Shown here: positions 36,646-55,523 of the stretch, piece after piece
Layout: every line of letters begins with the position of its first letter
Position numbering within the stretch: position 1 is the stretch's first letter
Origin: Rhizobium leguminosarum bv. trifolii WSM1325
GTDB taxonomy: Bacteria; Pseudomonadota; Alphaproteobacteria; Rhizobiales; Rhizobiaceae
Direction: 5' to 3'
DNA length: 64,000 nucleotides
Assembly: GCA_000023185.1 (NCBI GenBank)
Contig: CP001623.1
Span: forward strand, 496,001-560,000
The notes under the pieces: generated by a model
What the model saw: only the letters and a program-made list of their open reading frames with translations
What the model was told of the DNA's origin: nothing
Database searches by the model: none
Position numbers and translations under genes: made by a program

Positions 36646-36646
36646 T

Positions 36647-38576: not shown

Positions 38577-39590
38577 CTATTTCTCGAATGAGAAGACCTT
38601 CTTCCAGTCCGCTTTCATATCGACAACCAGCCAGTTGCGGCGCTCCGCTTCGTCGAGCGCCTTGTCGAGCTTGCCGATTTCGCTCTTTCGATCGTAGGCG
38701 ACCTCCCGTTCCGCATCCGTGTGATGGACGATCATCGCAAAGCTCGGACCCTTGGCGGTGACCCATCGCAGCATCTCGTAGTCGCCGTCAGAATTCCCGG
38801 CCACGAAGATCGGCTTGCGCCCGATGAACTTGTTGATGCCGGAAGGCTTGCCGGCGCCGTCGTCGACGAAGTCGATCTTCGGCAGCCTGTTGAGCACGGG
38901 CTCGTCGCCGACAATGGCATATTCCGTCGTGATGGTGCTGCCGACCACCTGTTCCGGCGGAATGCCGTACATTTTCTCGGTCACCGGCCGCATGAATTCG
39001 ACGCCGCCGCCGGAGACGATGTAGGTCTTGAAGCCGTTGGCCCTGAGGTAATCGAGGAGTTCGCGCATCGGCACGAAGGTCATCTCGTCGTAAGGCTTTG
39101 CGGTTTTCGGGTGCTTGGCGCTCGCAAACCAGTCGGTGACGATCTTCGAGAACTGGTCCGTCGTCATCCCGGCATGCGTCGTCATCGCGAGATCCATGAT
39201 CCCTTTCTCGCCGCCTTTCATCACGCCCATAGGATCGCCTGCCAGCACCGACTTGAACGGCTCCTTGGTCTGCCATTCAGGGTGCTCCGCTGCGAGCGTC
39301 TTCACACGGTCGAGCATAAAAGCAAACTGGAAGTAGATGGGTTGCTCCGACCAGAGGGTGCCGTCATTGTCGAAGACCGCGATCCGGTCTTCGGGCACGA
39401 CGTATCCTTCGCCGCCCTCGGCTGTCGTTGCCTTGACGAAATCCATGATCCTGGTCTTTGCCGCGGTATCGTTCCAGGACGGCAGGACCTCCTGCGCCAC
39501 GGCCGTTCCGACGACTCCACTGACGAGCAGCAGCGCGGCGACGAGAAATGATGCAAGCACGGTATCGGAAGCCTGGAAACGCCTTCTCAT
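38577..39590 (-). CDS. Exported HAD-superfamily phosphatase
   Basis: A 337-residue protein with an N-terminal signal peptide/anchor (VLASFLVAALLLVSGVVGTA). The HAD nucleophile motif DNDGTLW (residues about 74-80), motif II in TYIVSGGGVEF and motif III/IV in FVAGNSDGDYEML are all present, so phosphatase activity in the periplasm is likely. It overlaps the FGE gene by 4 bp and is 12 bp from the MscS gene, so the three are co-transcribed. The substrate is unknown. Similar exported HAD proteins occur beside sulfatases and DUF1254 genes. Confidence 0.88.
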   Translation of the reverse strand: MRRRFQASDTVLASFLVAALLLVSGVVGTAVAQEVLPSWNDTAAKTRIMDFVKATTAEGGEGYVVPEDRIAVFDNDGTLWSEQPIYFQFAFMLDRVKTLAAEHPEWQTKEPFKSVLAGDPMGVMKGGEKGIMDLAMTTHAGMTTDQFSKIVTDWFASAKHPKTAKPYDEMTFVPMRELLDYLRANGFKTYIVSGGGVEFMRPVTEKMYGIPPEQVVGSTITTEYAIVGDEPVLNRLPKIDFVDDGAGKPSGINKFIGRKPIFVAGNSDGDYEMLRWVTAKGPSFAMIVHHTDAEREVAYDRKSEIGKLDKALDEAERRNWLVVDMKADWKKVFSFEK

Positions 39591-40561
39591 TTCACTTCTC
39601 CTTCGGTGCGCCTGACGCAGCGGAAGCCGACATGGCTGGTGGACGTATCCTCGGGCTCGGCGTGGCGGGCGGCAGGACGGTAGCGTCTGCAGTAGTTTGG
39701 GGCGCAGAGATGGGAGCCGCCCTTCAGCACCCGCCGGGCTATCCGGATTTCCGGCTGGCGCGGATCGTAGCTTGCCTCGGCGTCACGCCCGCGTGGGTTG
39801 CTCGGAATGCAGCACGAGTGCTTCGCCGGTTCAGGATGCCGGGTCGACCAGTAGTCGCTGGTCCATTCCCAGACATTGCCGATCACGTCGTAGAGGCCGA
39901 AGCCGTTCGGCGGGAACGAACGCACGGGCGAGGTGCGTTCTTGGCCTTTCGGCTTCATCGAGTGGGTAGGGAACGTGCCGCTCCAGGTGTTTGCCATCGG
40001 CACACCGCCCGGCGCGAACTCGTCGCCCCATGCATATTCCGCATCATCCAGCCCGCCGCGGGCGGCAAGCTCCCATTCGGCCTCCGTCGGTAAATCGAGC
40101 CCGGCCCACTCCGCATAGGCAGCGGCGTCCGCGTAGGCGACATGTACGACCGGATGATCGAGCTTGCCGCGCAGATCGCTGAGACCGCCGAGGGGGCGGC
40201 GCCAGTTCGCACCGAACTTGAATGTCCACCACTGGGAGATGTCGGCGCCGTTCACGGCTTTCGGCTGCGTGAATACCAGCGACCCCGCCCTCAGCATCTC
40301 GGGCTTCGCACCGGGATAGTCCTTCGGATCGGGAGCTATCTCTGCGACGGTGACATATCCGGTCGTCTCGACGAATTGCTTGAACTGCCTGTTGGTGACC
40401 GGCGTCAGCGACATCCAGAAGCCGTCCACCTTGACCGGGTGGGCCGGGGCCTCCTCCGGATAATGATGGTCGGAGCCCATCGTGAACGTCCTGCCGGGAA
40501 TCCACACCATGCCCTCGGACTCGCGCCGGGCTTCTGTCGCGCTGTCGAATGCCAATGCCAT
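39587..40561 (-). CDS. Formylglycine-generating enzyme (sulfatase-modifying factor, SUMF1/EgtB family)
   Basis: A 324-residue FGE-sulfatase domain protein. The start segment MVWIPGRTFTMGSDHHYPEE, VNRQFKQFVETTGYVT-type stretch, LPTEAEWELAARGG and GNVWEWTSDYW are characteristic. The two copper-binding active-site cysteines are present in GGSHLCAPNYCRRYRPAARH, so it should convert a sulfatase Cys to formylglycine. The exported sulfatase 6 kb upstream has the right motif. ATG 40561 has GGAGG five bases upstream; the longer frame from 40603 has none. A shared 19-bp palindrome lies 54 bp upstream, so this gene starts its own transcript. Confidence 0.92.
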   Translation of the reverse strand: MALAFDSATEARRESEGMVWIPGRTFTMGSDHHYPEEAPAHPVKVDGFWMSLTPVTNRQFKQFVETTGYVTVAEIAPDPKDYPGAKPEMLRAGSLVFTQPKAVNGADISQWWTFKFGANWRRPLGGLSDLRGKLDHPVVHVAYADAAAYAEWAGLDLPTEAEWELAARGGLDDAEYAWGDEFAPGGVPMANTWSGTFPTHSMKPKGQERTSPVRSFPPNGFGLYDVIGNVWEWTSDYWSTRHPEPAKHSCCIPSNPRGRDAEASYDPRQPEIRIARRVLKGGSHLCAPNYCRRYRPAARHAEPEDTSTSHVGFRCVRRTEGEVK

Positions 40562-40615
40562 CGCGGCCTCCAGAACCGATATCCCCGACCTTAGCTCCCG
40601 CACGCCGTCAGGAAA

Positions 40616-40634
40616 GAATGTTACTGTTAACTCG
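40616..40634. promoter_or_regulatory. Regulon palindrome, site A (upstream of the FGE gene)
   Basis: GAATGTTACTGTTAACTCG, one of four gap-free copies of a 19-bp palindromic element in this region (others at 48691, 51059 and 53271). It lies in the 90-bp gap between the batD-like gene and the FGE gene. Confidence 0.65.
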
Positions 40635-40651
40635 ACGTAACAAAGCGTCCG

Positions 40652-41944
40652 TCATGCCACCGGATTGAGGTCGGGCAGGGCGGATTTTCGCGCTCGCCCC
40701 TTGTTCGTCGCTGCCAAGGTGATGGCGTCCGCGAATTTGCCGCGATCCAATTGCATGTCGCGCGACCGGAAGAGGCGGCGCTCGAGAATGGTGACCTGTG
40801 CCGCAAGCCGGGGATTGCCCTGCGCTTCAGCCCAGTCGGAAACCGACCGGAATCCGAGGCTCAAGCTCCAATCCTGAAGCGCCCGATAGATTGCCGGATC
40901 GGGCCCGACCCTGATGATGGTTCGAAAGCGGCGAAGTCTTCTTTGCGGCGAATTTCGGCGGCTCATTCGACGCCGTTCCGCCCATGCGCGGATTGCCGAG
41001 CCCCTTTGCCACGCGACAATTGCCGCAAAGCCGGCGAGCACGGCCGCGCATGATAACAGCACTACCGGCCAGGCATTCTTTCCTTCGTCTTCGCCAGGTG
41101 GATTGAATTTCGGATCGATGCGCTCGGTTGAAGGCGCCTTCGCCACGACGATATCAACGGCCGGAAGGGTCGCCGTCGCTGCGGCATGGGCATCCAGGTC
41201 GAACCATTGGTAGGAAACGGGTGGCGCCTGGAAGCCGCCTGCCGCAGAAGTCGTGTAGACCACGGTTTCCGTCCGGGTACTTCCGGTCTCGACGCTCCGG
41301 CCGATCCCGCGCTGTTCGACGCCGTCCGTCAGTGACGGCGGCTTCACATATTGCGCGACCCCCGCCGCCCGTCCCAGATCGACCGGTGGGATCAGCATGG
41401 CCTGCATGTCCTCGGCAAAGATGACGATCGTCCTCACGACAGCGTCGCCGGCCTTCAAATCTGCCGGGCTTCTGTCGAAGGACTGGCTTACCGTCAGGTT
41501 GCGGGCGGCGAAGGGGCTGGCCGCCTGATTAGGAGCGGCCGCGACATCGAAGGAGGGAAGGGCCACACGCACCTGCGCCTTGATCGCGCTTCCGTTCGCC
41601 GAATAGCCAAGATCGACCGCGATTTCGGGCAGCGCGACGGATCCGGGCTTCTCCGGGACGATCACGTAGCTCCTGCGTATTCCCGAATATTGAACGTCCG
41701 CGATCGTCTGGACGAGGTTCTGGGCACGATCGTCGGAAAGCGTGACAAGGGCGGCCGGGACCTCGAACAGCGGATATTGCGGCGGCGACGTGAAGAAGTC
41801 CGGCGCGAAGATGTCGACGACGACGTGGACCTGCTGGCCGGGGACGATCCCTTCCGCTCCTTCGATGGCGGCGCGTCCGAAGGGTTCGGCGGCGATGGCC
41901 TGTCCGCATGCCAACGCCCAGAAAAGCGTGGCTGGAAGTCTCAT
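40652..41944 (-). CDS. BatD-like protein (oxygen tolerance / DUF7939-type)
   Basis: A 430-residue envelope protein: signal peptide (MRLPATLFWALACGQAIAAE), beta-rich periplasmic domains (QQVHVVVDIFAPDFFTSPPQ, FAEDMQAMLIPPVDLGRA), one membrane segment (AWPVVLLSCAAVLAGFAAIV) and a basic helical cytoplasmic end. Order and position after two VWA genes identify it as BatD of the Bat (Bacteroides aerotolerance) module. The ATG overlaps the TGA of the VWA-TPR gene (ATGA). It closes the MoxR-Bat unit; its stop is 18 bp from palindrome site A. Confidence 0.82.
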   Translation of the reverse strand: MRLPATLFWALACGQAIAAEPFGRAAIEGAEGIVPGQQVHVVVDIFAPDFFTSPPQYPLFEVPAALVTLSDDRAQNLVQTIADVQYSGIRRSYVIVPEKPGSVALPEIAVDLGYSANGSAIKAQVRVALPSFDVAAAPNQAASPFAARNLTVSQSFDRSPADLKAGDAVVRTIVIFAEDMQAMLIPPVDLGRAAGVAQYVKPPSLTDGVEQRGIGRSVETGSTRTETVVYTTSAAGGFQAPPVSYQWFDLDAHAAATATLPAVDIVVAKAPSTERIDPKFNPPGEDEGKNAWPVVLLSCAAVLAGFAAIVAWQRGSAIRAWAERRRMSRRNSPQRRLRRFRTIIRVGPDPAIYRALQDWSLSLGFRSVSDWAEAQGNPRLAAQVTILERRLFRSRDMQLDRGKFADAITLAATNKGRARKSALPDLNPVA

Positions 41945-43494
41945 GGCGACCGCCTCCTCGCCTCGAGGGAAAACTTGCGGGCCAGCAGGTCCGCCGGGCT
42001 GACATTGATGTTCTTCATCCACATCTCTGACGTCTGCTCGGCAATATCAATCTGACCTTCGTTGCCCTCCTTTCCCTTCTCGTCGAACTGGACGCTGTCA
42101 GGATTCTCGCTCGGCTGTTCAGGCTGTTCTTCCTGCTTTTCCTTCTGTTGCTTCAGCAGTTGCCGCGCAACAGTGAGGTTCGCCTCGGCATCCGGCCATT
42201 CGCTTCGTTTATCGAGAGCCTTCTCATAGGCTGCGACAGCCTCCTCGAACTTCGATAGTTGGAGGAGAGCATTGCCTTGGTCGTACCAGCTCTCCGCCGT
42301 ATCGATGGAAGCAAAGGCGTCGATCGCCTCCTCGAATTTGCCGGCTCGATAGAGGGCGACGCCCTTCCACATCGGATCGGCAAAGTGGTTTGCGGCCTCG
42401 TCGTACTTGCCCCGCTCGAAGGCAATGCGGCCTTGCTGATCGGCAGTCAGCCACATCTCGATCAGTCCCTCCGCATGGGCGCTGCCCGGCGACAGCATCC
42501 GCAGGGCGAGCAGCAGCATGGCGATCCGCACCACCCAGCCCTTGCGGAACGACAGGGCCATCGCGACCGCGACCGGCACGACCAGCCACCAGCCGAGATC
42601 GCGCCAGCGGTCACCCTCTGTCTCCTGCTTCTGTGCGAAATTGCTGCGGATACGCTGCATGATCCAGCGAACATCCGTGTCGTCGTCTGTGATTGTCGCG
42701 ACATCAGCCCCCGCTTCCCTGCCGACGGCCTGGAGCCCGGCGACGTCGAGCTTGGGAAAGAGACGTGCGCCGGATGCATCCGAGAGAAATCCGCCATCCG
42801 GCGTCTTGACCGGCCCGCCCGCCGAAGTGCCGATCCCGAGAATGACGACGCCGTCGCCGCTCGACTTGAGTGTCTGCACAGCAGCGGCTTCCACTCCGTC
42901 GGTCAGCAGCAGGATCGTGCCGGCGACCCCCTCTTTGTCCAGCAGACTTTGCCCGAGCAGCAGGGCAGCTGCCGTGTCCTTGCCCGGCGTTGGCATGATG
43001 CGTGTCGCCAATGCCTCGGAGTAGCTTTCAAGCAGCGCCGCGTCCTCGGTCGGCGGCAGGACCAGATGCGCGGTGCCGGCATAGGCGATGATCGCGGTGC
43101 GCGCGCCCTGTCGGACCTCGATCACATCCTTGATCTTGAGTTTCGCCCGCTCCAGCCTGGACGGGGTCACGTCGATGGCGTCCATTGTCTGCGACAGGTC
43201 GACGGCGATGATGAGAGGCGCCGTGTCCTCGACGAAGGGCGGCGGTTCGCGCTGCCATGTCGGTCCTGCCGCTCCAGCGATCCCGGTGGCGAGGAGGGGA
43301 GCCAGCAACCAGGAAGGCCGCATTCGTGAGCGTCCCGAAGTATCGACGACGAGGCGGTCGAGCAGATGCGGCGCGATCATGCCCTTCCATTGTGCACGGA
43401 TGTCGCCGGAGCGTGAGACCATCCAGAGGATCACGGCCGGCAGTACGAGAAGGAGCAGGAGCCAGGGACGCAGGAAATGAAAATCCGTGATCAT
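41941..43494 (-). CDS. VWA-TPR protein (BatB/BatC-like fusion)
   Basis: A 517-residue inner-membrane protein. N-terminal membrane segments (PWLLLLLVLPAVILWMV, then LLAPLLATGIAGAAG) flank a von Willebrand A domain with intact MIDAS residues (AVDLSQTMDAID; LLLTDGVEAA). Another membrane segment follows, then TPR repeats (MWKGVALYRAGKFEEAIDAF, SWYDQGNALLQLSKFEEAVA). BatB and BatC are separate proteins in many bacteria; the fusion is common in Proteobacteria. Both ends overlap neighbours by 4 bp, so translation is coupled. Confidence 0.88.
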   Translation of the reverse strand: MITDFHFLRPWLLLLLVLPAVILWMVSRSGDIRAQWKGMIAPHLLDRLVVDTSGRSRMRPSWLLAPLLATGIAGAAGPTWQREPPPFVEDTAPLIIAVDLSQTMDAIDVTPSRLERAKLKIKDVIEVRQGARTAIIAYAGTAHLVLPPTEDAALLESYSEALATRIMPTPGKDTAAALLLGQSLLDKEGVAGTILLLTDGVEAAAVQTLKSSGDGVVILGIGTSAGGPVKTPDGGFLSDASGARLFPKLDVAGLQAVGREAGADVATITDDDTDVRWIMQRIRSNFAQKQETEGDRWRDLGWWLVVPVAVAMALSFRKGWVVRIAMLLLALRMLSPGSAHAEGLIEMWLTADQQGRIAFERGKYDEAANHFADPMWKGVALYRAGKFEEAIDAFASIDTAESWYDQGNALLQLSKFEEAVAAYEKALDKRSEWPDAEANLTVARQLLKQQKEKQEEQPEQPSENPDSVQFDEKGKEGNEGQIDIAEQTSEMWMKNINVSPADLLARKFSLEARRRSP

Positions 43495-44480
43495 GCCGCC
43501 GCCCTCCGCCTGAACGCGGCCGCCGTTCCCGAGATAAGATAATAGGCCGCCAGCAGTGCGACGGCGGCCAGCAGCGGCCAGTGGAACAGCTCGATCCGCG
43601 GCCGCCAGGACAGGTTCTTCTGATCCTCCGGCGTTATCTGGTCGAGCACCTCGTAGATCGCCGCCAGCTGCGACTGGTCGCCTCCGAAGAAGTAGCGGCC
43701 GCCGGTGCTCGCGGCGATCTTCTGCAGCGTCGCGGTGTCCAGCTTGTCCTCGCCCGTCGCGGCCGGGTCTCCGATACCCACCGTGTGGAAGATCACGCCC
43801 TTCGACTTCGCGATCTCGGCCGCCTTCAGGGGCGGCATCCTGCTGGCCGTGTCGTTGCCATCGGTCAGAACGATGAGCACCTTTTCCGGCGCGGTCGTCT
43901 TGCCGAACATCTTGATCGCAAGACCAAGGGCGTCTCCCAGCGACGTCCGCGGTCCGGCCATCCCGGGAACGGTGTCGGCGATCATCGTCCGGACGAGCTC
44001 GTGATCCATCGTGAAGGGTGCGAGCGGATAGGGCGCGTCTCCGAACGCGACGAGGCCAATCCGATCGCCCGGTCTTTTCCCGACGAAATCGGCGACGACC
44101 TGCCTGACGGCTTCGACGCGGGCGAGGGGCTTTCCATCGGCGCCAGGGAAGTCCCGCGCATCCATCGACTGCGACAGGTCGAGGGCGAGAAGGATGTCGC
44201 GCTGCGGCTCAACCTTCTCGATCGGCGGCTCCACGAACTGGGGCCGTGCCAGGGCGAGCACCACCAGGCACCACGCCAGGGTCTCACAGACGAGCTGCGG
44301 CCATGTCCTGCGCGTCACCACCGATCCCTCGGTCGGACGAACGCCCGCCGCCTTGGCGACCTGCGAGAAGAAGGGCAGTCTCACGGACGCCGATGTCTCC
44401 CGATGAGCCGGCAGCAGCCACCAGACCAGCACCGGCAATGGCAGCACAAGCAGAAGCCAGGGAAGATCAAGCTGATACAT
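43491..44480 (-). CDS. VWA-domain protein (BatA-like)
   Basis: A 329-residue protein with an N-terminal membrane segment (LPWLLLVLPLPVLVWWLLPA), a VWA domain with MIDAS motif LALDLSQSMDARDF and VLTDGNDTASR, and a C-terminal membrane segment (WPLLAAVALLAAYYLI). The chaperone-like VWA proteins of MoxR modules bind metal-dependent partners in the periplasm. ATG 44480 is used because the membrane segment starts there and it overlaps the upstream gene by 14 bp; the open frame from 44651 runs antisense-like through that gene. Confidence 0.88.
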   Translation of the reverse strand: MYQLDLPWLLLVLPLPVLVWWLLPAHRETSASVRLPFFSQVAKAAGVRPTEGSVVTRRTWPQLVCETLAWCLVVLALARPQFVEPPIEKVEPQRDILLALDLSQSMDARDFPGADGKPLARVEAVRQVVADFVGKRPGDRIGLVAFGDAPYPLAPFTMDHELVRTMIADTVPGMAGPRTSLGDALGLAIKMFGKTTAPEKVLIVLTDGNDTASRMPPLKAAEIAKSKGVIFHTVGIGDPAATGEDKLDTATLQKIAASTGGRYFFGGDQSQLAAIYEVLDQITPEDQKNLSWRPRIELFHWPLLAAVALLAAYYLISGTAAAFRRRAAA

Positions 44481-44988
44481 GATATTGCTCGATCCATTTG
44501 CGGGCGGCGATGACCAGATCGCCGCAGACATTCGATGGCAGATCCGCGACGATCTCGGCGCCATGATACTCGAAGTCGTCCAGAAGGCGTTCGAGCGTGT
44601 CTCCGGTCCCATCCTCGTCATGCGCGTCGAGAAATCGAACCCAGCCGTCACCGGAAAGAGAGGCGACCTCCTCGCGCGGCCAGGCCCCCAGCGCCGTCCG
44701 CTTCAGAACTTCTGCGAGATCCCGGATAGCGTCGGGGCGCGTCGCGGGGTGTCGGAGCTTGCTCGATATCCCTTCCAGCAAGGCCAGGGCCTCGCGCCTG
44801 TAGGCGTTGGCGCGGTAAAGCCTGATCCATCGGAGAACCACCAGGAGAGCCGTGAAGGCCAGCAGGGCTGCGACCAGAGCCCAGCCCCAGGTCTGCGGCC
44901 ACCATGAGACCGGAGCCGGCACCACGATGTCGTGCAGCGAACGCAGCGCCATCTCCGTCATCAGATCAAGCTTTGCTTCCGGCTCCAT
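44467..44988 (-). CDS. DUF4381 family protein
   Basis: A 173-residue protein with one membrane segment near the start (WGWALVAALLAFTALLVVLR) and a helical cytoplasmic part (AYRREALALLEGISSKLRHP). DUF4381 proteins always travel with MoxR-DUF58-VWA modules. ATG 44988 shares one base with the stop of the DUF58 gene (TGATG) and has GGAGG eight bases upstream. Confidence 0.83.
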   Translation of the reverse strand: MEPEAKLDLMTEMALRSLHDIVVPAPVSWWPQTWGWALVAALLAFTALLVVLRWIRLYRANAYRREALALLEGISSKLRHPATRPDAIRDLAEVLKRTALGAWPREEVASLSGDGWVRFLDAHDEDGTGDTLERLLDDFEYHGAEIVADLPSNVCGDLVIAARKWIEQYHVSA

Positions 44989-45922
44989 CAACGCCTCCGT
45001 TGCCGCCACGCAGACTGCTCCAGCAGACGCCTGAGCTGCGGCGCGGTTTCCTCGGCGGCCGATATGGGCAGTATCGGAAGCCCGAGCCGGCGCTGCCACG
45101 CTCTCAGCTCGCGGCCGCGGTTGCGGGCGAACGCGTCGATCGACGATCGGACGCTTGGTGTCCGCAGAGCCAGCTCGGCCTGCGGGCCGCCGCCGCTGAC
45201 GACGATGTCGCCCGAGGTCGGCAGGTCCAGTAGAAAGGGGTCGTAGATCAACAGGCAGATCACGTCGTTGCGGCTCGAGAGCCTCAGCAGGATGTCTTGC
45301 GTCGTCGCGGTATGGCCGTCGAAGTCGGAGACCACGACCACGAGATGGTCGTGGTGGGCGATATTTGCGACCGCCGACAAAACCGTGTCCAACGCCTGCG
45401 GGTCAGGCTCGCTTTTGCTGTCTGCGCGCAAGCTCGCGTTCTGCCGTGCGATTTGTTCCGCAAAGGCAATCACCGCATTACGGCTGCGATGCGGTTTTGC
45501 CTCGCTCGTTGCGCTTTCGCCGAAGACGAAGCCGCCGACCCGGTCGCCGGAACCCAGTATGCGCCAGGCGCAGAGCATCGCGGCTTCCGCTGCCGTGACC
45601 GATTTCATCGATCGCCTGCTGCCGAAGAACATGTTGATCCGTTGGTCGACGATGATCAGCGCGGGCCGCTCCTTTTCCTCGGAATAGATGCGGACCACCG
45701 GTCTGCTGGTTCGCGCGGTGACGCGCCAGTCGATGGAGCGGATGTCGTCGCCGGGCAGATAGTCGCGCAGTTCTTCGAAGATCAGTCCCCGGCCGCGCAT
45801 CGCCGATTGCATGCGGCCTGCAAGCTGCTGATGGCTGCGCGCCTTCTGGACGAAGCTCAGATCTCGGGCTCTCGCTTCGAGCGCGACCAGTTCGTCCGTC
45901 GAAACATAGACGCCCGCATCGC

Positions 45923-45926
<4 letters not shown>
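44988..45926 (-). CDS. DUF58 family protein
   Basis: A 312-residue protein of the DUF58 family. The signature YLPGDDIRSIDWRVTARTSR with PVVRIYSEEKERP is present, followed by a VWA-like fold (LIIVDQRINMFFGS, VVVVSDFDGHT). It is the standard partner of MoxR ATPases and probably acts in cytoplasmic assembly of the Bat complex. The ATG overlaps the moxR stop by 4 bp. Confidence 0.9.
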
Positions 45927-46900
<974 letters not shown>

Positions 46901-46922
46901 GGGAGCCTCGGTGAGAAAGGAG

Positions 46923-46947
46923 AGGCGCGCAGACCGTCTGCGCGCCT
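46923..46947 (-). terminator. Hairpin between sulfatase and moxR
   Basis: A perfect 11-bp stem (AGGCGCGCAGA / TCTGCGCGCCT) with a CCG loop lies 12 bp after the sulfatase stop and 23 bp before the moxR start. It has no strong T-run, so it may lower read-through from the sulfatase gene rather than block it. Confidence 0.5.
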
Positions 46948-46958
46948 TGGTGCATTGA

Positions 46959-48593
46959 TTATTTCTCGATACCGCGGTCCTTGAAGGACTGGTCAATCGC
47001 CTTGTCCACCTCGGCGCGGACGCCTTCGATGTTGAAGCTGGCGACCCGCTGGCTCGGCGGATATTTGACGAAGGTCTCGAGGAAGGCAGCTCCCTGCAAC
47101 TGACCCTTCACCAGCAGGTAGTCGTTGCGGATGACCCAGTCATTGTACTGGTCGGATACGACGTCGGCCCGTTCGTAGGGGTCCATGCGCAGATTGAACA
47201 GCTTCGGGATTCTCCAGGTGACGAGCGGGTTCTGCCAGACCGCAAATCCACCGGGCAGCTGTTGCTCCTTGAACACCACCTTCCAGTCGTCGTAACGCGT
47301 CGCGACCAGTGCGCCGTCATCATCGAAGTAGTAGAAGTCATGACGGGCGCTCTTGTCCGTTTTGCCTGTGAGGTAGTCGAGTTGGTTGTAGCCGTCGAGA
47401 TGGTTGCGGAAACTGCTGGCGCTTCCCTCCGGTTTCCACCCGCTGAGGAGGCGGCTTTTGACGTCGGGATCACCGGCGGCCGCAAGCAGCGTCGGGAACC
47501 AGTCGAGACCGGACATCATTCCATTCGAAACCTGGCCGGGCTGGATGTGGCCCGGCCATTTCACCATGGCCGGAACGCGGAACGCACCCTCCCAGTTGGT
47601 GTCCTTCTCGCTGCGGAACGGCGTTGTCGCCGCATCGGGCCATGAGAATTGGTTCGGGCCGTTATCGGTGCTGTAGACGACGATGGTGTTGTCGGCGATC
47701 CCGAGTTCGTCGAGCTTCTTCAAGATCTTTCCGACCATCTGATCGTGCTCGACCATGCCATCGGCATATTCGTTTCCGAGCATGCCGCTCTGACCCCGCA
47801 TAGACTCCCGCACGTGCGTGAAGACGTGCATGCGCGTCGCGTTCATCCAGGTAAAGAACGGCTTCTTCGCCTTCACCTGACGGTCCATGAAGTCCATCGC
47901 CGCAGCGCTGGTCTCGTCGTCGATCGTCTCCATCCGCTTCTTGGTCAGCGGGCCGCTGTCCTCGATCTTGCCGTCGGCCGACGCCTTGATGACGCCGCGC
48001 GGCGAGTAGGCCTTCAGGAACTCGGTGTCATCCTTCGGCCAATAGGGCGCTTCCGGCTCCTCTTCGGCGTTCAGATGATAGAGATTGCCGAAGAATTCGT
48101 CGAAGCCGTGTTTGGTCGGAAGATACTCGTCCCTGTCTCCCAGGTGGTTTTTGCCGAACTGCCCGGTTGCATATCCAAGCGGCTTCAGCGCCTGCGCGAT
48201 CGTTATGTCGCCGGCTTGCAAACCGACCGGAGCACCAGGTGCGCCAACCTTGCAGAGTCCGGTGCGCAGGCATGTCTGGCCGGTGATGAAAGTCGAGCGG
48301 CCCGCCGTGCAGCTGTTCTCGGCATAATAATCGGTGAACATCATGCCTGATTTGGCGATGCTGTCGATGTTCGGTGTCTTGTATCCGACGACGCCGAAGG
48401 AATAGGCGCTGATATTCGTCTGCCCGACATCGTCACCGAAGATGACAAGAATGTTCGGCTTGGAGGCATCGGCTGCGGCCGGTGCTGTTGTTGCCTGCTG
48501 CGCGAATACCGGGGGTGCGATCGCGGCCGCGGTCACGGTCATCGCGACGGCGGCCGTGGCGGCAAGGAGTCGTCGATAGATGGGCGTACTCAT
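46959..48593 (-). CDS. Exported arylsulfatase (type I, formylglycine-dependent)
   Basis: A 544-residue sulfatase with a signal peptide (RRLLAATAAVAMTVTAAAIA, cleavage near VFAQQA). The metal-binding start NILVIFGDDVGQTN and the maturation motif SCTAGRS with Cys95 (pattern C-x-A-x-R, where the CxPxR form is more usual) are visible; the later FGKNHLGD and VVYSTDNGPNQF carry metal and sulfate-binding residues. The nearby FGE gene can supply the formylglycine. The ester substrate is unknown. ATG 48593 has AGGAA seven bases upstream. Palindrome site B lies 97 bp upstream. Confidence 0.92.
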   Translation of the reverse strand: MSTPIYRRLLAATAAVAMTVTAAAIAPPVFAQQATTAPAAADASKPNILVIFGDDVGQTNISAYSFGVVGYKTPNIDSIAKSGMMFTDYYAENSCTAGRSTFITGQTCLRTGLCKVGAPGAPVGLQAGDITIAQALKPLGYATGQFGKNHLGDRDEYLPTKHGFDEFFGNLYHLNAEEEPEAPYWPKDDTEFLKAYSPRGVIKASADGKIEDSGPLTKKRMETIDDETSAAAMDFMDRQVKAKKPFFTWMNATRMHVFTHVRESMRGQSGMLGNEYADGMVEHDQMVGKILKKLDELGIADNTIVVYSTDNGPNQFSWPDAATTPFRSEKDTNWEGAFRVPAMVKWPGHIQPGQVSNGMMSGLDWFPTLLAAAGDPDVKSRLLSGWKPEGSASSFRNHLDGYNQLDYLTGKTDKSARHDFYYFDDDGALVATRYDDWKVVFKEQQLPGGFAVWQNPLVTWRIPKLFNLRMDPYERADVVSDQYNDWVIRNDYLLVKGQLQGAAFLETFVKYPPSQRVASFNIEGVRAEVDKAIDQSFKDRGIEK

Positions 48594-48690
48594 CACGGGT
48601 TTCCTTTCTGCTTGCGGTTCGACATTTTCGGTCTGCTTGTGGATCGGATGACTTGGCAGGGATACTGCTTCAGGCTCAGTCAGGTGGTAA

Positions 48691-48709
48691 GCTTGTAACT
48701 GTTACTTCG
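48691..48709. promoter_or_regulatory. Regulon palindrome, site B (upstream of the sulfatase gene)
   Basis: GCTTGTAACTGTTACTTCG, a copy of the 19-bp element also found at 40616, 51059 and 53271. A further half-site GGTAACA follows at 48722. It lies between the sulfatase start and the 3' end of the lipoprotein hydrolase gene. Confidence 0.65.
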
Positions 48710-48746
48710 AGGTCGGCCGGAGGTAACAATCGCCTGCCCAAGCCGG

Positions 48747-49982
48747 CTATTGCGTCAGGGGCTTCGACTGGCGGTCGTTGTGCAGGCCGTCTTCCAGCTC
48801 CGTTCCTGTCGGCTGCCGCTTTCTTGCCGGCTGCTCGATGATCACAAGTGGTGCTGCAACTGCAGCGCCTGCGACTGTGCCGACGGTGCGCGCTGTCCCG
48901 CCCACGACGGCGGCGACGCCCTGTCCGAGAGAAATGTTGGAATCCGTCAGCGTTTGCCCGGTCATCAGACGCTGGCCGATGAGCTGGACGATGTCGGGAC
49001 TTTCGGCGAACTTGCCATGATGGAGGCTGTCGCCGGCCTTCACCTTCGTGAGGTCGATCGCGGTGATGCCCGCCTTTTCCAGCCTGGATCGATAGGGCTC
49101 CTTCGACGGGTCTATGGCACCGAGCCGCGACACGTTGCCGGTGATGAAGCTCGATGCCGCGAGCGCCCGGTCGTCCTGGGACACGAAGATGGTGAACTTC
49201 GGTTTCGGGTCTCCCATCTCGACGAACTGCTTGGCGAACACCTGGATGTCGATGTCGGGCGAGGCGAGGATGACGTTGTGTATCTTGGCGTTGACGTGAC
49301 CGTCGCGGATGCCCATCTGCCGCAGCGATTCCATCGCCAGCCACGTTCCCATGGAATGCGCGAGGATGGTGATGTCCTTCACATCAGGATCGGCGGCGAG
49401 GACCCGCAGCGCCTGCTCCAGCGCCGTGCGCGAATAGTTCGTGCTTTCCTTGTCGTATTCGTATCCGGTGAGCTGCGCGCGTGACGGCCAGGTGAAGAGG
49501 ATCGGCGTCGCCTGCATGCCGCTGTCGTGGACGATCTGGGCGAGGCGGAAGACCGAGTCCTCGTATGTGTTGTTAAACCCGTGGATGAAAACCAACGCAT
49601 GCCCGCCCTGAATATGCTGGCGGAACCATGCCCGGCCTTCCGGAATGGTGTCGATCTGCTTCACCCGTGTCACGGCAAAGTCCGTGGCAGGATTGGGCGG
49701 CAGTCGCTGCGGCCACTGGACGGTGCCCGCCTCGCGCTTCGGCGGAATGGAAACCGCAACGTCGGTCATGGAGGGCTTTGGGCTGCGCTCGCCGTTGAAC
49801 AACGTCGCCGGATCGCCCGACGGCTGTCGGGTCGTTGCGACGAGCATGTCGACCTGCGCGGTTCCGGGCGTGGCCGCAGTCAGCGCCACAGGCTGCATGA
49901 CGCCGCGTGGATGTCCGCAGGCGCAAAGCGGCGCCAGGAGAACCAGCAGCGCGATCAGTCGAAGCGATGTCGCCCGGGGCAT
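48747..49982 (-). CDS. Lipoprotein alpha/beta hydrolase (DUF900 family)
   Basis: A 411-residue protein with a lipoprotein signal peptide (SLRLIALLVLLAPLCACGHP, lipobox LCAC). The hydrolase core has an oxyanion loop FIHGFNNTYEDSV, nucleophile Ser in LAHSMGTWLA and catalytic Asp/His candidates in SPDIDIQVF and DSLHHGKF. DUF900 proteins are poorly known esterase-like enzymes. Its start is 9 bp after the stop of the barrel-protein gene, so the two form one transcript under palindrome site C. Confidence 0.85.
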   Translation of the reverse strand: MPRATSLRLIALLVLLAPLCACGHPRGVMQPVALTAATPGTAQVDMLVATTRQPSGDPATLFNGERSPKPSMTDVAVSIPPKREAGTVQWPQRLPPNPATDFAVTRVKQIDTIPEGRAWFRQHIQGGHALVFIHGFNNTYEDSVFRLAQIVHDSGMQATPILFTWPSRAQLTGYEYDKESTNYSRTALEQALRVLAADPDVKDITILAHSMGTWLAMESLRQMGIRDGHVNAKIHNVILASPDIDIQVFAKQFVEMGDPKPKFTIFVSQDDRALAASSFITGNVSRLGAIDPSKEPYRSRLEKAGITAIDLTKVKAGDSLHHGKFAESPDIVQLIGQRLMTGQTLTDSNISLGQGVAAVVGGTARTVGTVAGAAVAAPLVIIEQPARKRQPTGTELEDGLHNDRQSKPLTQ

Positions 49983-49991
49983 GATCGATCC

Positions 49992-50987
49992 CTATTGCGC
50001 CGCTATGTTCATCGGCTTGGTGATCGACAAGGGCATCGAGACCGTCAGATAGACGGCGTCTCCCTCGGCACGGTTTTCGGCGGCGAACTCGTGGAAATAC
50101 TTGATGCGGGTCGAAATCGGCACTTCGCCCGCTTTGAACGTCCAGCCGATGGTCGCGCCGATGGCCGCGACGCGCCCCTTGAAATCGCTGGACGCGCCGG
50201 CGCCGCTGTCGCCGCTCACCTGATCGTAATAGTACCCAACGAGACCGGCGTCGAACTGCTCGTTGAAGTGCTGGACGGCTGACCATTCGACATGGAACTC
50301 GTTGCCCGTGCGGTAGTCGGTGGCAGGGTTCTCGGCATTGAACGTCATGCCGACCACCGCCGACAGGTCAAGCCCGATTGCCGGATCGAGCCAGGTCACG
50401 CCGGCCGAAATGTCCGCGCCCCAATGGTGGAAGGCTATGTTCGATATCTCGCCGTCTTGATAGTCACCGATCGGAACGTTGACCAGAAGGGCGGTCTGCC
50501 AATGGAAGTTGCCGGCCTCCCAGCCCAGCAGGGCGCCAAGCACAGGATCGCCAACGGTGAAGATCGGATCGGAGATCGATCCGGACGCTGTCCCACCTCG
50601 CGGTCCCGCCAATGTCACATCGGCGTCCGTGTTCTTCCAGCCGACAGGGACGGTCAGCGACAGCCCAAGGTGACCTCCCGCAACATCTTCCGGAAGAATC
50701 CAGAGCACGGTAGGCACCTCGATGACTGCCTTGCCCTCCACGCCGACGGCCAGACGTCCGCCGGTCGGTAGGACTTTTCCGCCGCCGAGATCTCCCGTAT
50801 AGAGGTAGATATCGTTCGAGAAGAAAACGCCCGGCGGCGGCGTGATGGCCGCGGCAGGGCCCTTCGATCCGAGAAGATAAAAACCCGCTCCGCCCTCGGC
50901 GGCGAAGGCGAGCGGAGGCAGCAGCGTCACAGCTGCGCCTGCGAGAAAGGTGGAGGCGACTGAGAAGACAAGCAGCTTGCGTATCAT
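49992..50987 (-). CDS. SphA / phenol-MetA-pathway type outer-membrane protein
   Basis: A 331-residue beta-barrel-like protein with a signal peptide (KLLVFSVASTFLAGAAVTLL then AFAAEGG). The start of the mature chain (EGGAGFYLLGSKGPAAAITP) and the alternating strands with the final aromatic residues are typical of the Phenol_MetA_deg/SphA family; these barrels are thought to pass hydrophobic compounds. ATG 50987 has GAGGG six bases upstream; a longer frame from 51041 overlaps palindrome site C. First gene of a two-gene unit with the lipoprotein hydrolase. Confidence 0.82.
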   Translation of the reverse strand: MIRKLLVFSVASTFLAGAAVTLLPPLAFAAEGGAGFYLLGSKGPAAAITPPPGVFFSNDIYLYTGDLGGGKVLPTGGRLAVGVEGKAVIEVPTVLWILPEDVAGGHLGLSLTVPVGWKNTDADVTLAGPRGGTASGSISDPIFTVGDPVLGALLGWEAGNFHWQTALLVNVPIGDYQDGEISNIAFHHWGADISAGVTWLDPAIGLDLSAVVGMTFNAENPATDYRTGNEFHVEWSAVQHFNEQFDAGLVGYYYDQVSGDSGAGASSDFKGRVAAIGATIGWTFKAGEVPISTRIKYFHEFAAENRAEGDAVYLTVSMPLSITKPMNIAAQ

Positions 50988-51058
50988 GGCGGCCCTCAAC
51001 ATCATCGCCCGCAATCTGCGGACAGGTCGAAGGAAAGCCATCGGAGGCTGCCGGACAA

Positions 51059-51077
51059 GGATGTTACTGTTACATCG
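51059..51077. promoter_or_regulatory. Regulon palindrome, site C (upstream of the SphA-like gene)
   Basis: GGATGTTACTGTTACATCG, a copy of the 19-bp element also found at 40616, 48691 and 53271. It is 71 bp upstream of ATG 50987 and overlaps the stop codon of the TPR regulator gene. Confidence 0.68.
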
Positions 51078-52794
51078 ACCCGTTGCTGGCGAGTTCCGGC
51101 GATTTTAAGCCCGCTGCCAGAATGCCTGTTCGAAGGGCAGCTTTGAGACTGCTGTCAAAACGCGCTCCGGAGAACATGGCTGCGACTGTCCGGTCGAGAT
51201 CGGGATGCTGCAGACGGGCTGCGGCTATCTCCTGCTCCGTCACCGGCCGGTCACCGAGGCGAGCGATGGCGGCCAGCTTCAACACGGTCGTCGGCGTATC
51301 GGCTGCCGGGACCTGCCGGGCAAGTAAAACCGCTTCGGCGTAGTGCCCCTGGCGGTAGGCGTCGAGGATCATGACGAAATTCGCGTCACGTATCGTCTGG
51401 CCGACGAGGTCGGTCGCCTCTTTCGCAAGGCGGCTACCCTCTTCCCAGTGCCCGCTCAGGAAGAGGGCCATCGAGAGCTTTGCCAGGAGGTCTGCATTTT
51501 CCGGGTTCAGGGCGACACCGCGCCGGCCGGCTGCGATGGAGGCGTCGTTCTGGCCGACCTGGTATTGCGTCGCCAACTGGGCAAGCGCTGCCCTGGTGGA
51601 GACGGGCGAGACCGTTGCAGCCCGGTTCGCGAGTTCGAGACCGCGGCCGAAATAGCTGTCGTCGCCGGTCGTGCGGCCGGTCCACATGAAGACGCGTGCA
51701 AGTGTCGCCATCGCGTCGGCGTCAGCGGGATCCGCGGCGATCGTTGCTTCCAGGCAGGGACGGGCCGCTTTCAGAGCGGCCAGGCGGCGCTGTTCGGCGG
51801 CAAATTCGCCCCTCAGCACGCAGATGTTGCCGGTCGTGGATGCCGGCAGATTGCGCCGCAGTTCCATGGTGTTGACGACGCCGACAGGTCCCGCGATCCT
51901 GCGGGAGACGCCGTAGACCAGCGCGCGCATCGCGTCATCTCGCGTCCCGGTTCCTTTTTGGCGTCGATCCTGGTCGGTCCAGACCGCCTCTCCCGTGGCC
52001 GCGTCGGAAAGCTGCCACCACAAGGAGACGGATGTCGCATCCTCACCGTAGCGCATCCTGACGTCGTACGTCGTCTGCTCGGCCGGCTCGACGCCGGGCC
52101 TCGTCATTGCATCGGATTTGAGGCGGACGGTGCCGAACCGCGCAAGCGACACGGCCAGATCTTCGATGACCGCCTCTCCGGCCACCGTATCCTTCTGCGC
52201 CGCATTCAGCGATAATGAAACGAATGGCTTTTGCGTATCCAAAGGCGCGGGCATGGCGGCGCGGAAGACAGCGTAGCCTCCGGCCATGGCAATGGCGGCG
52301 AAGCTCGCCAGCGCGATCGCAATGTGACCTTTGCGCTTGACGGCGGACCCTGACGAAGGCGTCCGGTCTTCGGCTGCCGGGACGATGTCCTCTTCGACAT
52401 CGGAAACATCTTCGCCGGGGCATGGCGGTTGCCCTCGCTCGACGAAGACAGGAACATATCGTCCGCGGGGAATGTCCAGGCGCGCTCCAGGCTCGTCGCC
52501 GAGCTGCTCGTAATATTTCGCCAAGGTCTCACGAAGACGCGTCGCCTCTATGCGCACGATCGGATCGGACGAGGGATCGAACGACGCAGGCCGGTTGAAG
52601 ACGTCGATCGCGATGGAATAGGCCTTCACCGCGTCGCCGCGACCTTCGAAAACGGCGTCGACGATGTATCTGAGAAACGCTCTATGGCGATCGGAGACAT
52701 GAAGCCGCGGGTCGGCCAGAAGTCGCTCCGCCTCCGACCTTGCCTCGCTCTCACAGACCGCCTGTGCCCCGCTGCTCATGCCGTTCGCTGCCAT
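51070..52794 (-). CDS. Membrane-anchored TPR protein with a putative DNA-binding N-terminus
   Basis: A 574-residue protein. The N-terminal domain (SDRHRAFLRYIVDAVFEGRG, then DPIVRIEATRLRETLAKYYE and PRGRYVPVF) is typical of a group of rhizobial regulator-like proteins otherwise annotated as adenylate-cyclase- or TolB-related. A disordered acidic linker, one membrane segment (residues about 157-178) and a periplasmic TPR-like region (AALAQLATQYQVGQNDASIA, ENADLLAKLSMALFLSGHWE) follow. The topology recalls CadC/ToxR-type one-component regulators, but a winged helix is not evident, so the regulator role is inference. It is the only regulator candidate in the palindrome region. Confidence 0.7.
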   Translation of the reverse strand: MAANGMSSGAQAVCESEARSEAERLLADPRLHVSDRHRAFLRYIVDAVFEGRGDAVKAYSIAIDVFNRPASFDPSSDPIVRIEATRLRETLAKYYEQLGDEPGARLDIPRGRYVPVFVERGQPPCPGEDVSDVEEDIVPAAEDRTPSSGSAVKRKGHIAIALASFAAIAMAGGYAVFRAAMPAPLDTQKPFVSLSLNAAQKDTVAGEAVIEDLAVSLARFGTVRLKSDAMTRPGVEPAEQTTYDVRMRYGEDATSVSLWWQLSDAATGEAVWTDQDRRQKGTGTRDDAMRALVYGVSRRIAGPVGVVNTMELRRNLPASTTGNICVLRGEFAAEQRRLAALKAARPCLEATIAADPADADAMATLARVFMWTGRTTGDDSYFGRGLELANRAATVSPVSTRAALAQLATQYQVGQNDASIAAGRRGVALNPENADLLAKLSMALFLSGHWEEGSRLAKEATDLVGQTIRDANFVMILDAYRQGHYAEAVLLARQVPAADTPTTVLKLAAIARLGDRPVTEQEIAAARLQHPDLDRTVAAMFSGARFDSSLKAALRTGILAAGLKSPELASNGSM

Positions 52795-52889
52795 TACGCA
52801 CCTCACGCCCGCCTGTCCATAAGCCGTCGCGAATATGCGTCATGTCACTGAAAGTTGCAATCCAGTTCCCGTGCATCGTGAACGATAAG

Positions 52890-53180
52890 TTAAGGGTGGC
52901 GGTCCGGCCGTATCCGCGCCAGGCGTGAACGGCAGCGGAGGACGACATCGGATTCAAGCGCCTGACACACGCCCCGGTACTCTTCAATGAGTCCGTCCTC
53001 TCCGTCGCCGGGGCGCTGGACAAGGCGTTCCAGCGTGGCGGTCGCATCTTGATAAGCCTCGCAGAGAGCCTCGAAGGAAGGATCGCTCGGCCAGAGTCGC
53101 TGAAGCTCGCCACGCAATGACGGCAGCCGCAGCATCAACTTCAAAAGTCCGCGGTGGGCGGCAGCTCTGGCGGTGTCCAT
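52890..53180 (-). CDS. Small hypothetical protein
   Basis: A 96-residue, Leu/Arg-rich helical protein (GLLKLMLRLPSLRGELQRLW, then SFEALCEAYQDATATLERLV) with no signal peptide. The ribosome-binding site is distant (AAGGA 12 bases upstream of ATG 53180). It lies upstream of the TPR regulator on the same strand and may be co-transcribed. Family not recognised. Confidence 0.55.
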   Translation of the reverse strand: MDTARAAAHRGLLKLMLRLPSLRGELQRLWPSDPSFEALCEAYQDATATLERLVQRPGDGEDGLIEEYRGVCQALESDVVLRCRSRLARIRPDRHP

Positions 53181-53270
53181 GGCGAGCAGGCGTTCCTTTC
53201 AGTCAGGAGGCGTGCAATGAAGCGCGAGGCGCCTCGGTTCATTCTCGCGCCGGTCAACCGCAAGAATCGA

Positions 53271-53289
53271 GAATGTTACTGTAACATTC
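53271..53289. promoter_or_regulatory. Regulon palindrome, site D (upstream of the barrel/DUF1254 operon)
   Basis: GAATGTTACTGTAACATTC is a perfect 19-bp palindrome with a central T, the best copy of the element also found at 40616, 48691 and 51059. A second short palindrome GTAACCGTTAC follows at 53319-53329. It is 99 bp upstream of the barrel gene start. Confidence 0.72.
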
Positions 53290-53388
53290 GTACGGCACTG
53301 CCCGCCTTGCGGATCGCGGTAACCGTTACAGGCTGTGGCCGAATGCAGTTTCGTGCTGGAGTGCGTGCGGTCGATAGAAGAGGTGTCC

Positions 53389-54083
53389 GTGCGCCCGCAT
53401 ACTCCCGCATTGTCACTAATGTTGGCACTGCCTTCCCCGGCCGGTGCCCAGGAGGCGCACGACGCCGTCAACGAGGCCAACAACCCGCTGACGCCGAAGA
53501 TCACCATCAACCTGCAGGACTATTACATACCGAGCTTCATCGACACGCCGGGAGTGCCCGAGGCGAAGCAGTTCCTGCTGCGCGGTCTCATCCCATGGGA
53601 CATGTTCGGGCTGCCGCAGCTTCTTCGCTTTACGCTCCCGATCGCGACGTCTCCCGACGTTCCAAGCGGATATGTCACGGGGCTCGGTGATCTCACGCTG
53701 ATGGATCTCTTCATCCTGCCAAAACACGGGAATGTTCTCGGCGCCGGCCCGCTGCTCGTCGTTCCCAAAGCCACGGACGTGTCCCTTGGAAGCGGCAAAT
53801 GGCATATCGGCGTGGCGGGCGTCGTGATCGCACCTCAAAGATGGGGGCTCCTCGGAGCTCTGGCGACCTATCAGGTGTCCTTCGCCGGCGTGGAACTTCA
53901 ATCTCGAGGACGGCAACTCCTACATCCCATGGGCGCTGGCGTCGGCAAGGTGTTCCAGCTCGAAAGGGCGTGACGATGAACGCCTTCGTTGAGGCTCAGT
54001 ATACGGTCTGGCACGACGGACCGGGTGCGCCCCGCTGGCAGATCTTCGCCGGCGTCAATTTGCAGTTTCCGGTCGGACGGTGA
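53389..54083 (+). pseudogene. Outer-membrane barrel-like protein, multiply frameshifted at its 3' end
   Basis: Read from GTG 53389 (AGAGG five bases upstream), the protein has a signal peptide (TPALSLMLALPSPAGAQ) and barrel-type sequence (ITINLQDYYIPSFIDTPG, then LPIATSPDVPSGYVTGLGDL). From about 53890 the natural continuation WNFNLEDGNSYIP is in another frame, GAGVGKVFQLER returns to the first, and the end GVTMNAFVEAQYTVWHDGPG then RWQIFAGVNLQF (stop at 54083) is in a third. At least three indels are needed. If intact it would be a first operon gene before the DUF1254 pair. Confidence 0.7.
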
Positions 54084-54109: not shown

Positions 54110-55519
54110 ATGCGTAAAACGGTCTTCGCGTTCCTCATGCTTTTCGCCGCCACGACCACCGCCGCAGCGTTCACTTCCGAGGAGCTGGCGTCCCGCACGG
54201 TCGAGCGGCGCGCCGTCGAGGCCGTTATCTGGGGAATTCCGGCGGTCAACTACGACCTGATGCTCCAGGAGATGCTCACCAAGACGAAGGGAAAGGTGAA
54301 CCAGATCCTCTACTGGTCGCGGCCGCTCGACTAGCACAACCAGACCCTGACGCCCAATCCCGACGCGATCTATCTGATGGCATTCACCGACACCAAGAGC
54401 GTGGGTCCCGTCGTGATCGAGGTGCCGCCCGCCGAGGGAGGCTCGATCAACGGCAACATCGTCAATATCTGGCAAATGGCCCTCGAGGACGCTGGCCCGT
54501 CCGGCGCCGACCAGGGCAATGGCGGCAAATATCTTGTGCTTCCGCCGGGATACAAGGACAAGGCCCCGGACGACTACATCCCGCTCCAGTCCGACACGTT
54601 CGGCGGATACGCGCTTCTGCGATCGAACCTTGCCAGCCATAGCGATGCTGACATTGCCAAATCCGTCGAATACGCCAAGCGACTGAAGATCTATCCGCTG
54701 TCGCAGGCCGCAAACCCTCCGCAAACGGTCTTCACCGACGCAAAGGACGTCGTCTTCGATTCCACCATCAAGTACGACGAAAGTTTCTTCAAGTCGCTCG
54801 ACCGGGTGGTGCAGTACGAACCGTGGCTATCGCGCGACCGGGCGATGATCGACCCACTTCGGTCGCTCGGCATCGAGAAGGGCAAGACATTCGCTCCGAC
54901 GCCGGCGGTTGGAAAACAGCTCGAAGCAGGCGTGAAAGAGGGAAAGGAATGGCTCGCGGAAAAGTACGATAGCGGGCTGATCCCCTTCTACGACAACAGC
55001 CGATGGAACTTCGCGGGTAGCCCCGAACTCGTGAAGAGCGCCCAGGCTGGATATGGCGAACCCGAAGCTTATCCGGTCGATCTGCGCGGCGTCGCCTATA
55101 GCTACGCCTTCGTTGGCCTCAAGCGGATGGGGACCGGGCAATTCTACCTGATCTCCATCAAGGACAAGGCCGGTCATGACTTCGACGGGTCGCAAACCTA
55201 TCGCCTGAGCGTGCCAGCCGGCGTGCCCGTTCAGCAATATTGGTCGCTGACCGCCTACGACCGCGAGACCCATGCGCTCATTCGTAACATGGACCGCGCC
55301 AGCCGTTCGTCGCAGATCGCCGATCTCAAGAAGAACGAGGACGGCTCCGTCGACATCTTCCTCGGTCCGAAGGCCCCGAAGGGTGAGGAGGCGAACTGGA
55401 TCCCGACCGATCCCGAGCGGAAGTTCGAAGTCATGTTCCGTCTCTACGCGCCGACCAAGGCATTGTTCGACAAGAGCTGGGTGCTCCCGGATCTGGACCA
55501 AATCGAAGCGAAGGAGTGA
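54110..55519 (+). pseudogene. DUF1254/DUF1214 protein interrupted by an in-frame amber codon
   Basis: One open reading frame of about 469 codons with a signal peptide (TVFAFLMLFAATTTAAAFTS), interrupted by a single in-frame TAG at 54332. The context LYWSRPLD-stop-HNQTLTPNPDAIYLMAF shows that a Trp codon (TGG) at a position conserved in the family was changed to TAG. No frameshift is involved. The remainder (ANPPQTVFTDAKDVVFDSTI, then MFRLYAPTKALFDKSWVLP) is a normal DUF1254 plus DUF1214 protein. Such proteins are exported and of unknown function. A restart at 54377 would give a protein without signal peptide. Confidence 0.85.
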
Positions 55520-55523
55520 CCAG

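Follow-up and report, generated by a model that had tools for sequence, protein, structure and literature searches.

Palindromic sites in promoters of a Rhizobium leguminosarum locus as probable operators of a linked, putative membrane regulator with TPR repeats

The locus and its palindromic sites

The stretch of DNA analysed here (the window) comprises 64,000 nucleotides of contig CP001623.1 from Rhizobium leguminosarum bv. trifolii WSM1325 (assembly GCA_000023185.1, positions 496,001 to 560,000) and contains several transcription units that share a 19-bp palindrome in their promoters. These units encode a formylglycine-generating-enzyme-like protein (FGE) with a HAD hydrolase and an MscS-like channel, a sulfatase with MoxR/Bat-like proteins, a transporter with a DUF900 hydrolase, a barrel-like protein with DUF1254 proteins, and a small protein with a regulator containing tetratricopeptide repeats (TPR) (Table 1). 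The palindromes are very probably operators of this TPR regulator, a ToxR/CadC-like membrane protein as judged from sequence and a structural model, which would control its own gene and those of its neighbours.

A first-pass annotation of the window had listed four 19-mers, and all of them are found letter for letter at 40616, 48691, 51059 and 53271, with 11 of the 19 positions identical throughout; the palindrome at 53271, described as perfect, is so with the exception of its central base. The spacing of 54-99 bp upstream of the genes agrees with the 55, 98, ~87 and 100 bp measured from gene starts placed by homology with annotated orthologs (FGE 40561, sulfatase 48593, transporter ~50972, barrel ~53389). 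The assertion that no other copy stands at a gene start had to be abandoned, as a fifth copy, CGCGGTAACCGTTACAGGC, is located at 53315-53333, 44 bp from copy 4. This pair sits between divergent units, flanked on the right by the barrel/DUF1254 unit and on the left by the small gene and TPR regulator on the minus strand, and the site at 53271 is also 91 bp upstream of the start of the small gene (53180). With up to two mismatches the core TGTTACTGTTAC matches the window seven times against 0.52 expected, a count reached by 0 of 100 shuffles; the seven include the last palindrome twice, once per strand, and a match inside the MoxR gene (46227).

Table 1. Candidate operators and genes of the locus (window coordinates)
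Feature	Position	Strand	Remarks
Candidate operator, copy 1, GAATGTTACTGTTAACTCG	40616..40634		55 bp upstream of FGE start; site at same promoter in 5/5 aligned orthologous loci
Extra half-site GTAAC	40637..40641		11 bp past right half of copy 1; GTAACAA invariant in 6/6 aligned promoters
Candidate operator, copy 2, GCTTGTAACTGTTACTTCG	48691..48709		98 bp upstream of sulfatase start
Extra half-site GTAAC	48723..48727		22 bp past right half of copy 2; GGTAACAATC invariant in 6/6 aligned promoters
Candidate operator, copy 3, GGATGTTACTGTTACATCG	51059..51077		Overlaps 3' end of regulator gene; ~87 bp upstream of transporter start
Candidate operator, copy 4, GAATGTTACTGTAACATTC	53271..53289		Between divergent small-gene/regulator and barrel/DUF1254 units
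Candidate operator, copy 5, CGCGGTAACCGTTACAGGC	53315..53333		56 bp before barrel start; 43-44 bp from copy 4 in orthologous L117, L118, L122, L123 and L124
TPR regulator (P0001)	51070..52794	-	Winged-helix-like N-terminus, hydrophobic segment, TPR C-terminus; proposed operator binder
Small gene preceding regulator	52890..53180	-	96 aa
Transporter/outer-membrane-like protein	49992..50972	-	PF13557
DUF900 alpha/beta hydrolase	48747..49982	-	Family in 55/80 related loci
Sulfatase	46959..48593	-	
MoxR-DUF58-DUF4381-VWA-VWA/TPR-BatD-like genes	40652..46900	-	Behind sulfatase
Formylglycine-generating-enzyme-like protein (FGE)	39587..40561	-	
HAD family hydrolase	38577..39590	-	
MscS-like channel	36588..38564	-	Frame by homology to annotated ortholog; C-terminal end not settled
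Barrel-like gene	53389..54080	+	Frame interrupted near 53967 in WSM1325
DUF1254/DUF1214 gene	54110..55504	+	One in-frame stop in WSM1325
Second DUF1254/DUF1214 gene	55272..56918	+	Mechanical open reading frame limits

Distribution in the WSM1325 genome and at orthologous promoters

Window positions 40000-54000 are identical to the WSM1325 record NC_012848.1. A profile of the TPR regulator identifies three full-length members in the 7.42 Mb genome (C1:2399869, C3:403715 and C2:547067, the last being that of the window) and ten further, weaker matches to the C-terminal part only. The exact word TGTWACNGTWACA occurs at four places, all within ~6 kb of these three genes, and with up to one mismatch at 12, of which 8 lie equally close to them. 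The site at 40616 has two mismatches to TGTWACNGTWACA, level with 95 genome places, and hence falls outside the 12; its support comes from its conservation, with better cores, in related strains. At two mismatches the letter-reversed control yields 985 matches against the 95 and is no background estimate for this palindrome. Exact GTANNNTACNGTANNNTAC is found at three places, all at the two paralog loci and none in the window, while the consensus 19-mer at up to three mismatches has six places, all at the three loci, with 53271 the only one in the window. Both other loci hold a DUF900 hydrolase 51-53% identical to that of the window, accompanied either by DUF1254 genes or by MscS and a divergently oriented HlyD gene.

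The motif had been tied to a single region, a view that does not hold since the two paralogous-regulator loci carry close variants. The window is one of three related regulator loci, which may or may not engage in cross-talk. Of the dedicated single-factor regulon proposed initially, a regulon of one type of factor is strongly supported, its confinement to one region is lost, and the linked TPR protein is now a strong in silico candidate for the factor. Random occurrence across the genome, named at the outset as a ground for doubt, is not what the scan revealed, since the places concentrate at the three TPR regulator loci.

Conservation at orthologous promoters, the other point raised there, is likewise borne out. 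Five plasmid loci from R. johnstonii, R. leguminosarum, R. indicum and strain SU303 carry sites at these promoters too, some of the cores being better than in the window, and copy 3 is unchanged in five of five aligned orthologs, where its flanks are well kept too. Sites in window-type loci are mostly located 55-137 bp before start codons. In 66 flanks of these loci, GTAAC/GTAAA half-sites follow the right half at a distance of 11-12 bp in 10 cases and of 20-22 bp in 9, offsets at which the reversed half-site word is seen in 1 and 0 cases; they are absent from the 80 loci described below and restricted to the window-type loci, which are mutually related. R. tumorigenes and R. rhizogenes use the variant GTACGTTACNGTAA, first read from these loci and scanned for afterwards, at the promoters of FGE, sulfatase, hydrolase, DUF1254, transporter and regulator, where GTACGTTAC is the half closer to the gene. 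Three sites of this type stand in the unannotated Sinorhizobium sp. RAC02 locus, and there are none in letter-reversed controls, in two leguminosarum-type loci or in the window.

The gene layout differs in places between strains. The barrel gene and the first DUF1254 gene have orthologs annotated as full-length on other plasmids, and the candidate operators preceding the interrupted WSM1325 copies are still well kept. In two other strains a gene encoding an SH3-domain protein (869 aa in L118; L118:15001-17610) lies between regulator and transporter and is preceded by the third candidate operator; in WSM1325, which is devoid of this gene, the site faces the transporter instead (50972-51077).

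Regulator and site in other genomes

From 157 relatives detected in a scan of species genomes, 80 loci were retained. A gapped-palindrome search upstream of the regulator returned two top entries nested in GTATGTTACNGTAACATAC, each in 20 of the 80 loci. A site with at least 13 of 18 matches is present in 77 of the 80 (3 in letter-reversed DNA), and at a threshold of at least 14 of 18 there are 147 sites compared with none in reversed or Markov sequence. With the loci reduced to 42 that differ by at least 25% in the N-terminal domain, a site is found in 39 (reversed: 3), and in 25 it stands no more than 420 bp ahead of the regulator gene (none in reversed DNA). The best grammar is GTAnnnTAC-N-GTAnnnTAC, i.e. 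two 9-mers separated by a 1-bp spacer, with 82 perfect and 57 one-off matches; spacers of 0, 2 and 3 gave 0, 0 and 1 matches at 11 or more of 12. A 13-bp core, considered earlier as the whole motif, was replaced by this grammar after the spacer comparison. The middle triplets are freer, and 90 distinct sites comprise 26 inverted, 8 direct, 5 everted and 51 unclassed arrangements under simple classes. To judge by their letters, the window sites are a variant of this grammar, roughly GnaTGTTAC-N-GTwACAtnC, its copies scoring 12, 11, 14, 16 and 10 of 18 against the 80-locus consensus. Most sites fall outside genes, 116 of 156 lying beyond predicted coding bodies though 83.5% of bases are coding, and the distance from site to next start has a median of 90 bp and a 5-95% range of -20 to 315 bp (search range -60 to 400).

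These numbers bear on two alternatives. Taken by themselves, four short sites within 13 kb might be noise, and site 1 alone is at genome background, but a chance or repeat-element resemblance was rejected on the window shuffles, the genome scan and the reversed and Markov controls of the 80 loci; given the large excess over shuffled, reversed or Markov sequence and the conservation at orthologous promoters, its probability is close to negligible. The second is that the motif represents a promoter element, such as the -35-like box of an alternative sigma factor, instead of an operator, as the asymmetry of the R. rhizogenes/tumorigenes site and its constant direction relative to annotated genes might suggest. 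The two 9-mers are set a constant 1 bp apart and form a near-palindrome in most sites, site-to-start distances vary widely, and the scanned family representatives contain no sigma-factor domain, all of which render this explanation highly improbable.

The regulator is itself the first gene behind a site in 48 of the 80 loci. The further targets, counted with a mechanical open reading frame caller (198 first genes, 22 singletons) and named in Pfam from one representative per cluster, include DUF1254/1214 proteins, a small protein and HlyD (15 loci each), DUF900 hydrolases (13), DUF481-like barrels (9), sulfatase, DUF3300, Cys-rich repeat, Lnb_N and DUF2147 proteins (5 each), DUF3604 proteins and MGH1-like glycosidases (4 each), FGE (3) and DUF2092 proteins (2), as well as clusters without Pfam match in 7, 7 and 4 loci. 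Such sites thus precede sulfatase and FGE genes at loci other than that of the window as well. Overall, the pairing of regulator and site recurs across many soil bacteria, often before genes that are likely to encode cell-envelope proteins.

The TPR regulator

Pfam recognises only TPR repeats in the window protein and no receiver domain. Its N-terminal domain matches neither Pfam nor NCBIfam, and a sequence search of this domain against solved structures gave no match. In the structural model (52399..52755 on the minus strand, 119 aa, mean pLDDT confidence 88) it adopts a predicted winged helix, with PhoB/OmpR-type DNA-binding domains as best structural alignments; four helices are followed by two strands, and an N-terminal antiparallel beta-sheet is not present in the model. 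The Trans_reg_C profile (PF00486) matches 0 of 37 members at E up to 10, within the filters of HMMER. Profile comparison with Trans_reg_C gave E 0.2 with several wrong-strand target sequences, E 0.011 after the strand was chosen by a rule that itself seeks Trans_reg_C-like letters, and nothing in global mode; in the weak profile comparison with PhoB/OmpR-type domains, recognition helix and wing align co-linearly.

A hydropathy peak at residue 158 (1.98) points, by composition only, to a transmembrane segment following the N-terminal domain, and a peak of 1.6 or more within residues 110-220 is seen in 72 of the 80 relatives. The C-terminal region is predicted to form helical repeats and would, in the mechanism proposed below, be periplasmic. 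Proteins of the same genome share the profile of this TolB/TPR part and differ in their N-terminal domains, with fusions to Trans_reg_C (L028) or to other N-termini (L029-L032, L034) that we take to be cyclase-like; the latter may explain the 'adenylate cyclase' names in databases. Among the 120 hits listed of 153, the family goes by names of the kind tetratricopeptide repeat protein, hypothetical protein, Adenylate cyclase and TolB-like protein.

The 96-aa protein encoded upstream shows weak similarity (25% identity, 15 bits) to members of a small-protein family that is present in 43 of the 80 related loci and is the one found behind a site in 15 of them; it could be a partner of the TPR regulator.

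How far the motif follows the regulator

A family-wide draw yielded 95 domain matches in 58 of 151 genomes, from which 60 upstream regions of domain-bearing genes were used, and several results limit how far the sites can be assigned to the TPR family. Few of the 60 regions contain the full site (5 at 14 of 18 versus 0 in the control), and the grammar at 11-12 of 12 is found in only 5 versus 0, one of each five being L206, which had been chosen knowingly. The single 9-mer is not enriched in 30 distant members (1 versus 1, that one again L206), blind palindrome and gapped-word searches of the 60 regions did not rank the motif first, and fixed-pattern whole-genome tests across the family were weak. 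The consensus 19-mer at up to three mismatches occurs in 17 of the 151 genomes, 10 of 58 with the TPR domain and 7 of 93 without it (8 places), a level of mismatch that amounts to background because the letter-reversed control pattern is frequent as well. In 30 closer members the single 9-mer was found 12 times near versus 1 far, 11 of the 12 falling between -78 and -122 relative to where the domain approximately starts. The fading in distant members therefore implies that the code is a property of a subfamily, or is altered beyond recognition outside it.

At up to two mismatches the 19-mer has nine places in the 151 genomes, in three genomes that all have the TPR domain; seven of the nine are within ~3 kb of a TPR regulator gene, five of these in WSM1325. 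GTANNNTACNGTANNNTAC is found in 34 of the 151 genomes, in many via an unrelated GTACCGTAC... class; with this class set aside by eye, 17 places are left, and 10 of them have a regulator gene no more than 10 kb away, including 3 in WSM1325 itself. The exact palindrome GTACCGTACNGTACGGTAC is present in many family genomes, often without the TPR domain, and GTAATGTACNGTACATTAC in two genomes without it (G102:C23:49325 and G030:C61:5640), where it may be the site of another factor.

It is in this context that a different, unlinked regulator, for example of the LysR or TetR type, has to be weighed as the binder of the sites, with the TPR protein merely a member of the regulon. The TPR gene is itself a site-bearing target, a LysR gene is located at 58144-59067, and the small upstream protein, which has no Pfam match, could be a regulator. 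TGTTACTGTAACA also fits what we take to be the T-N11-A motif of LysR-type regulators. The genomic pattern argues otherwise: the places at up to two mismatches are confined to genomes with the TPR domain and mostly near TPR genes, and the motif loci of WSM1325 equal its full-length TPR paralogs in number. Among the protein families of the 80 loci, representatives of the 21 that come next in prevalence contain no DNA-binding Pfam domain, and no LysR domain is found in those of the 22 most widespread. We consider an unlinked factor unlikely.

A candidate mechanism

What supports the assignment of the palindromes to the TPR regulator as operators is the set of sites itself, nearly confined to three loci of the genome, conserved and linked to the TPR family, together with the predicted fold; that the protein binds DNA, how it sits in the membrane, what it senses and in which direction it controls its targets are inferences. 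The cytoplasmic N-terminal winged-helix domain would bind paired 9-bp GTAnnnTAC units located 10 bp apart, about one helical turn, and the additional GTAAC half-sites, lying one or two turns beyond, would assist at two window promoters. A single membrane-spanning segment would serve as anchor, and the TolB/TPR-like part at the C-terminus as sensor of an envelope signal. The regulon would encompass the regulator's own unit, the sulfatase with MoxR/Bat-like genes, FGE-HAD-MscS, the transporter and DUF900 hydrolase, and barrel-DUF1254. Judging by the site distances, the orientation relative to genes in one clade and the sites before the regulator itself, activation with positive autoregulation would fit slightly better than repression, and the difference is not decisive.

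A broader proposal, which we put forward tentatively and regard as less likely than not, is that an undescribed class of winged helix characterises a large family of membrane-tethered TPR regulators, its recognition unit being the self-complementary 9-mer GTAnnnTAC, perhaps with a dimer of its own on each unit. Since each unit is palindromic, units could be paired in different orientations one turn apart or, in more distant members, stand alone ~100 bp upstream; a higher-order assembly of the tethered protein may control a shared envelope regulon of sulfatase, DUF900, DUF1254, DUF3604, DUF3300 and DUF2092 proteins.

Relation to known systems and significance

The predicted architecture of the TPR regulator, a putative N-terminal winged helix followed by one hydrophobic segment and a C-terminal domain, is reminiscent of ToxR/CadC-type proteins, as is the presence of several sites upstream of targets. 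For CadC, an OmpR-type winged helix and two promoter sites are described, one with a quasi-palindromic 17-mer (PMC5430869). Unlike these proteins, the TPR regulator has no Trans_reg_C match, its model starts with helices where CadC/OmpR-type domains have a beta-sheet, its putative sensor part is TolB/TPR-like, its candidate operator is GTAnnnTAC-N-GTAnnnTAC, and its sites precede its own gene in many loci. The PhoB/OmpR-type effector domains, its best structural alignments, differ in that the TPR regulator has no receiver domain and a sequence match below significance, and its main site is mostly an inverted and not a direct repeat. Tandem sites of the PhoB type are spaced like the half-sites of the window-type loci, 11-12 and 20-22 bp.

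Among the matches listed, literature searches showed no paper on this TPR family or motif, nor on combinations of DUF900, DUF1254, sulfatase, MoxR and TPR; DUF1254 is named once each in 5 papers, and of 115 papers with a literal motif string the 15 listed were unrelated by title. A census of transmembrane regulators relied on Pfam DNA-binding models (PMC10269533) and would probably miss the TPR regulator, whose domain matches no such model. If correct, the operator assignment would provide a function and a DNA code for a protein family that carries only such database names as those given above, and would tie DUF900, DUF1254/1214, DUF3604, DUF3300 and DUF2092 proteins into testable regulons in a clover symbiont.

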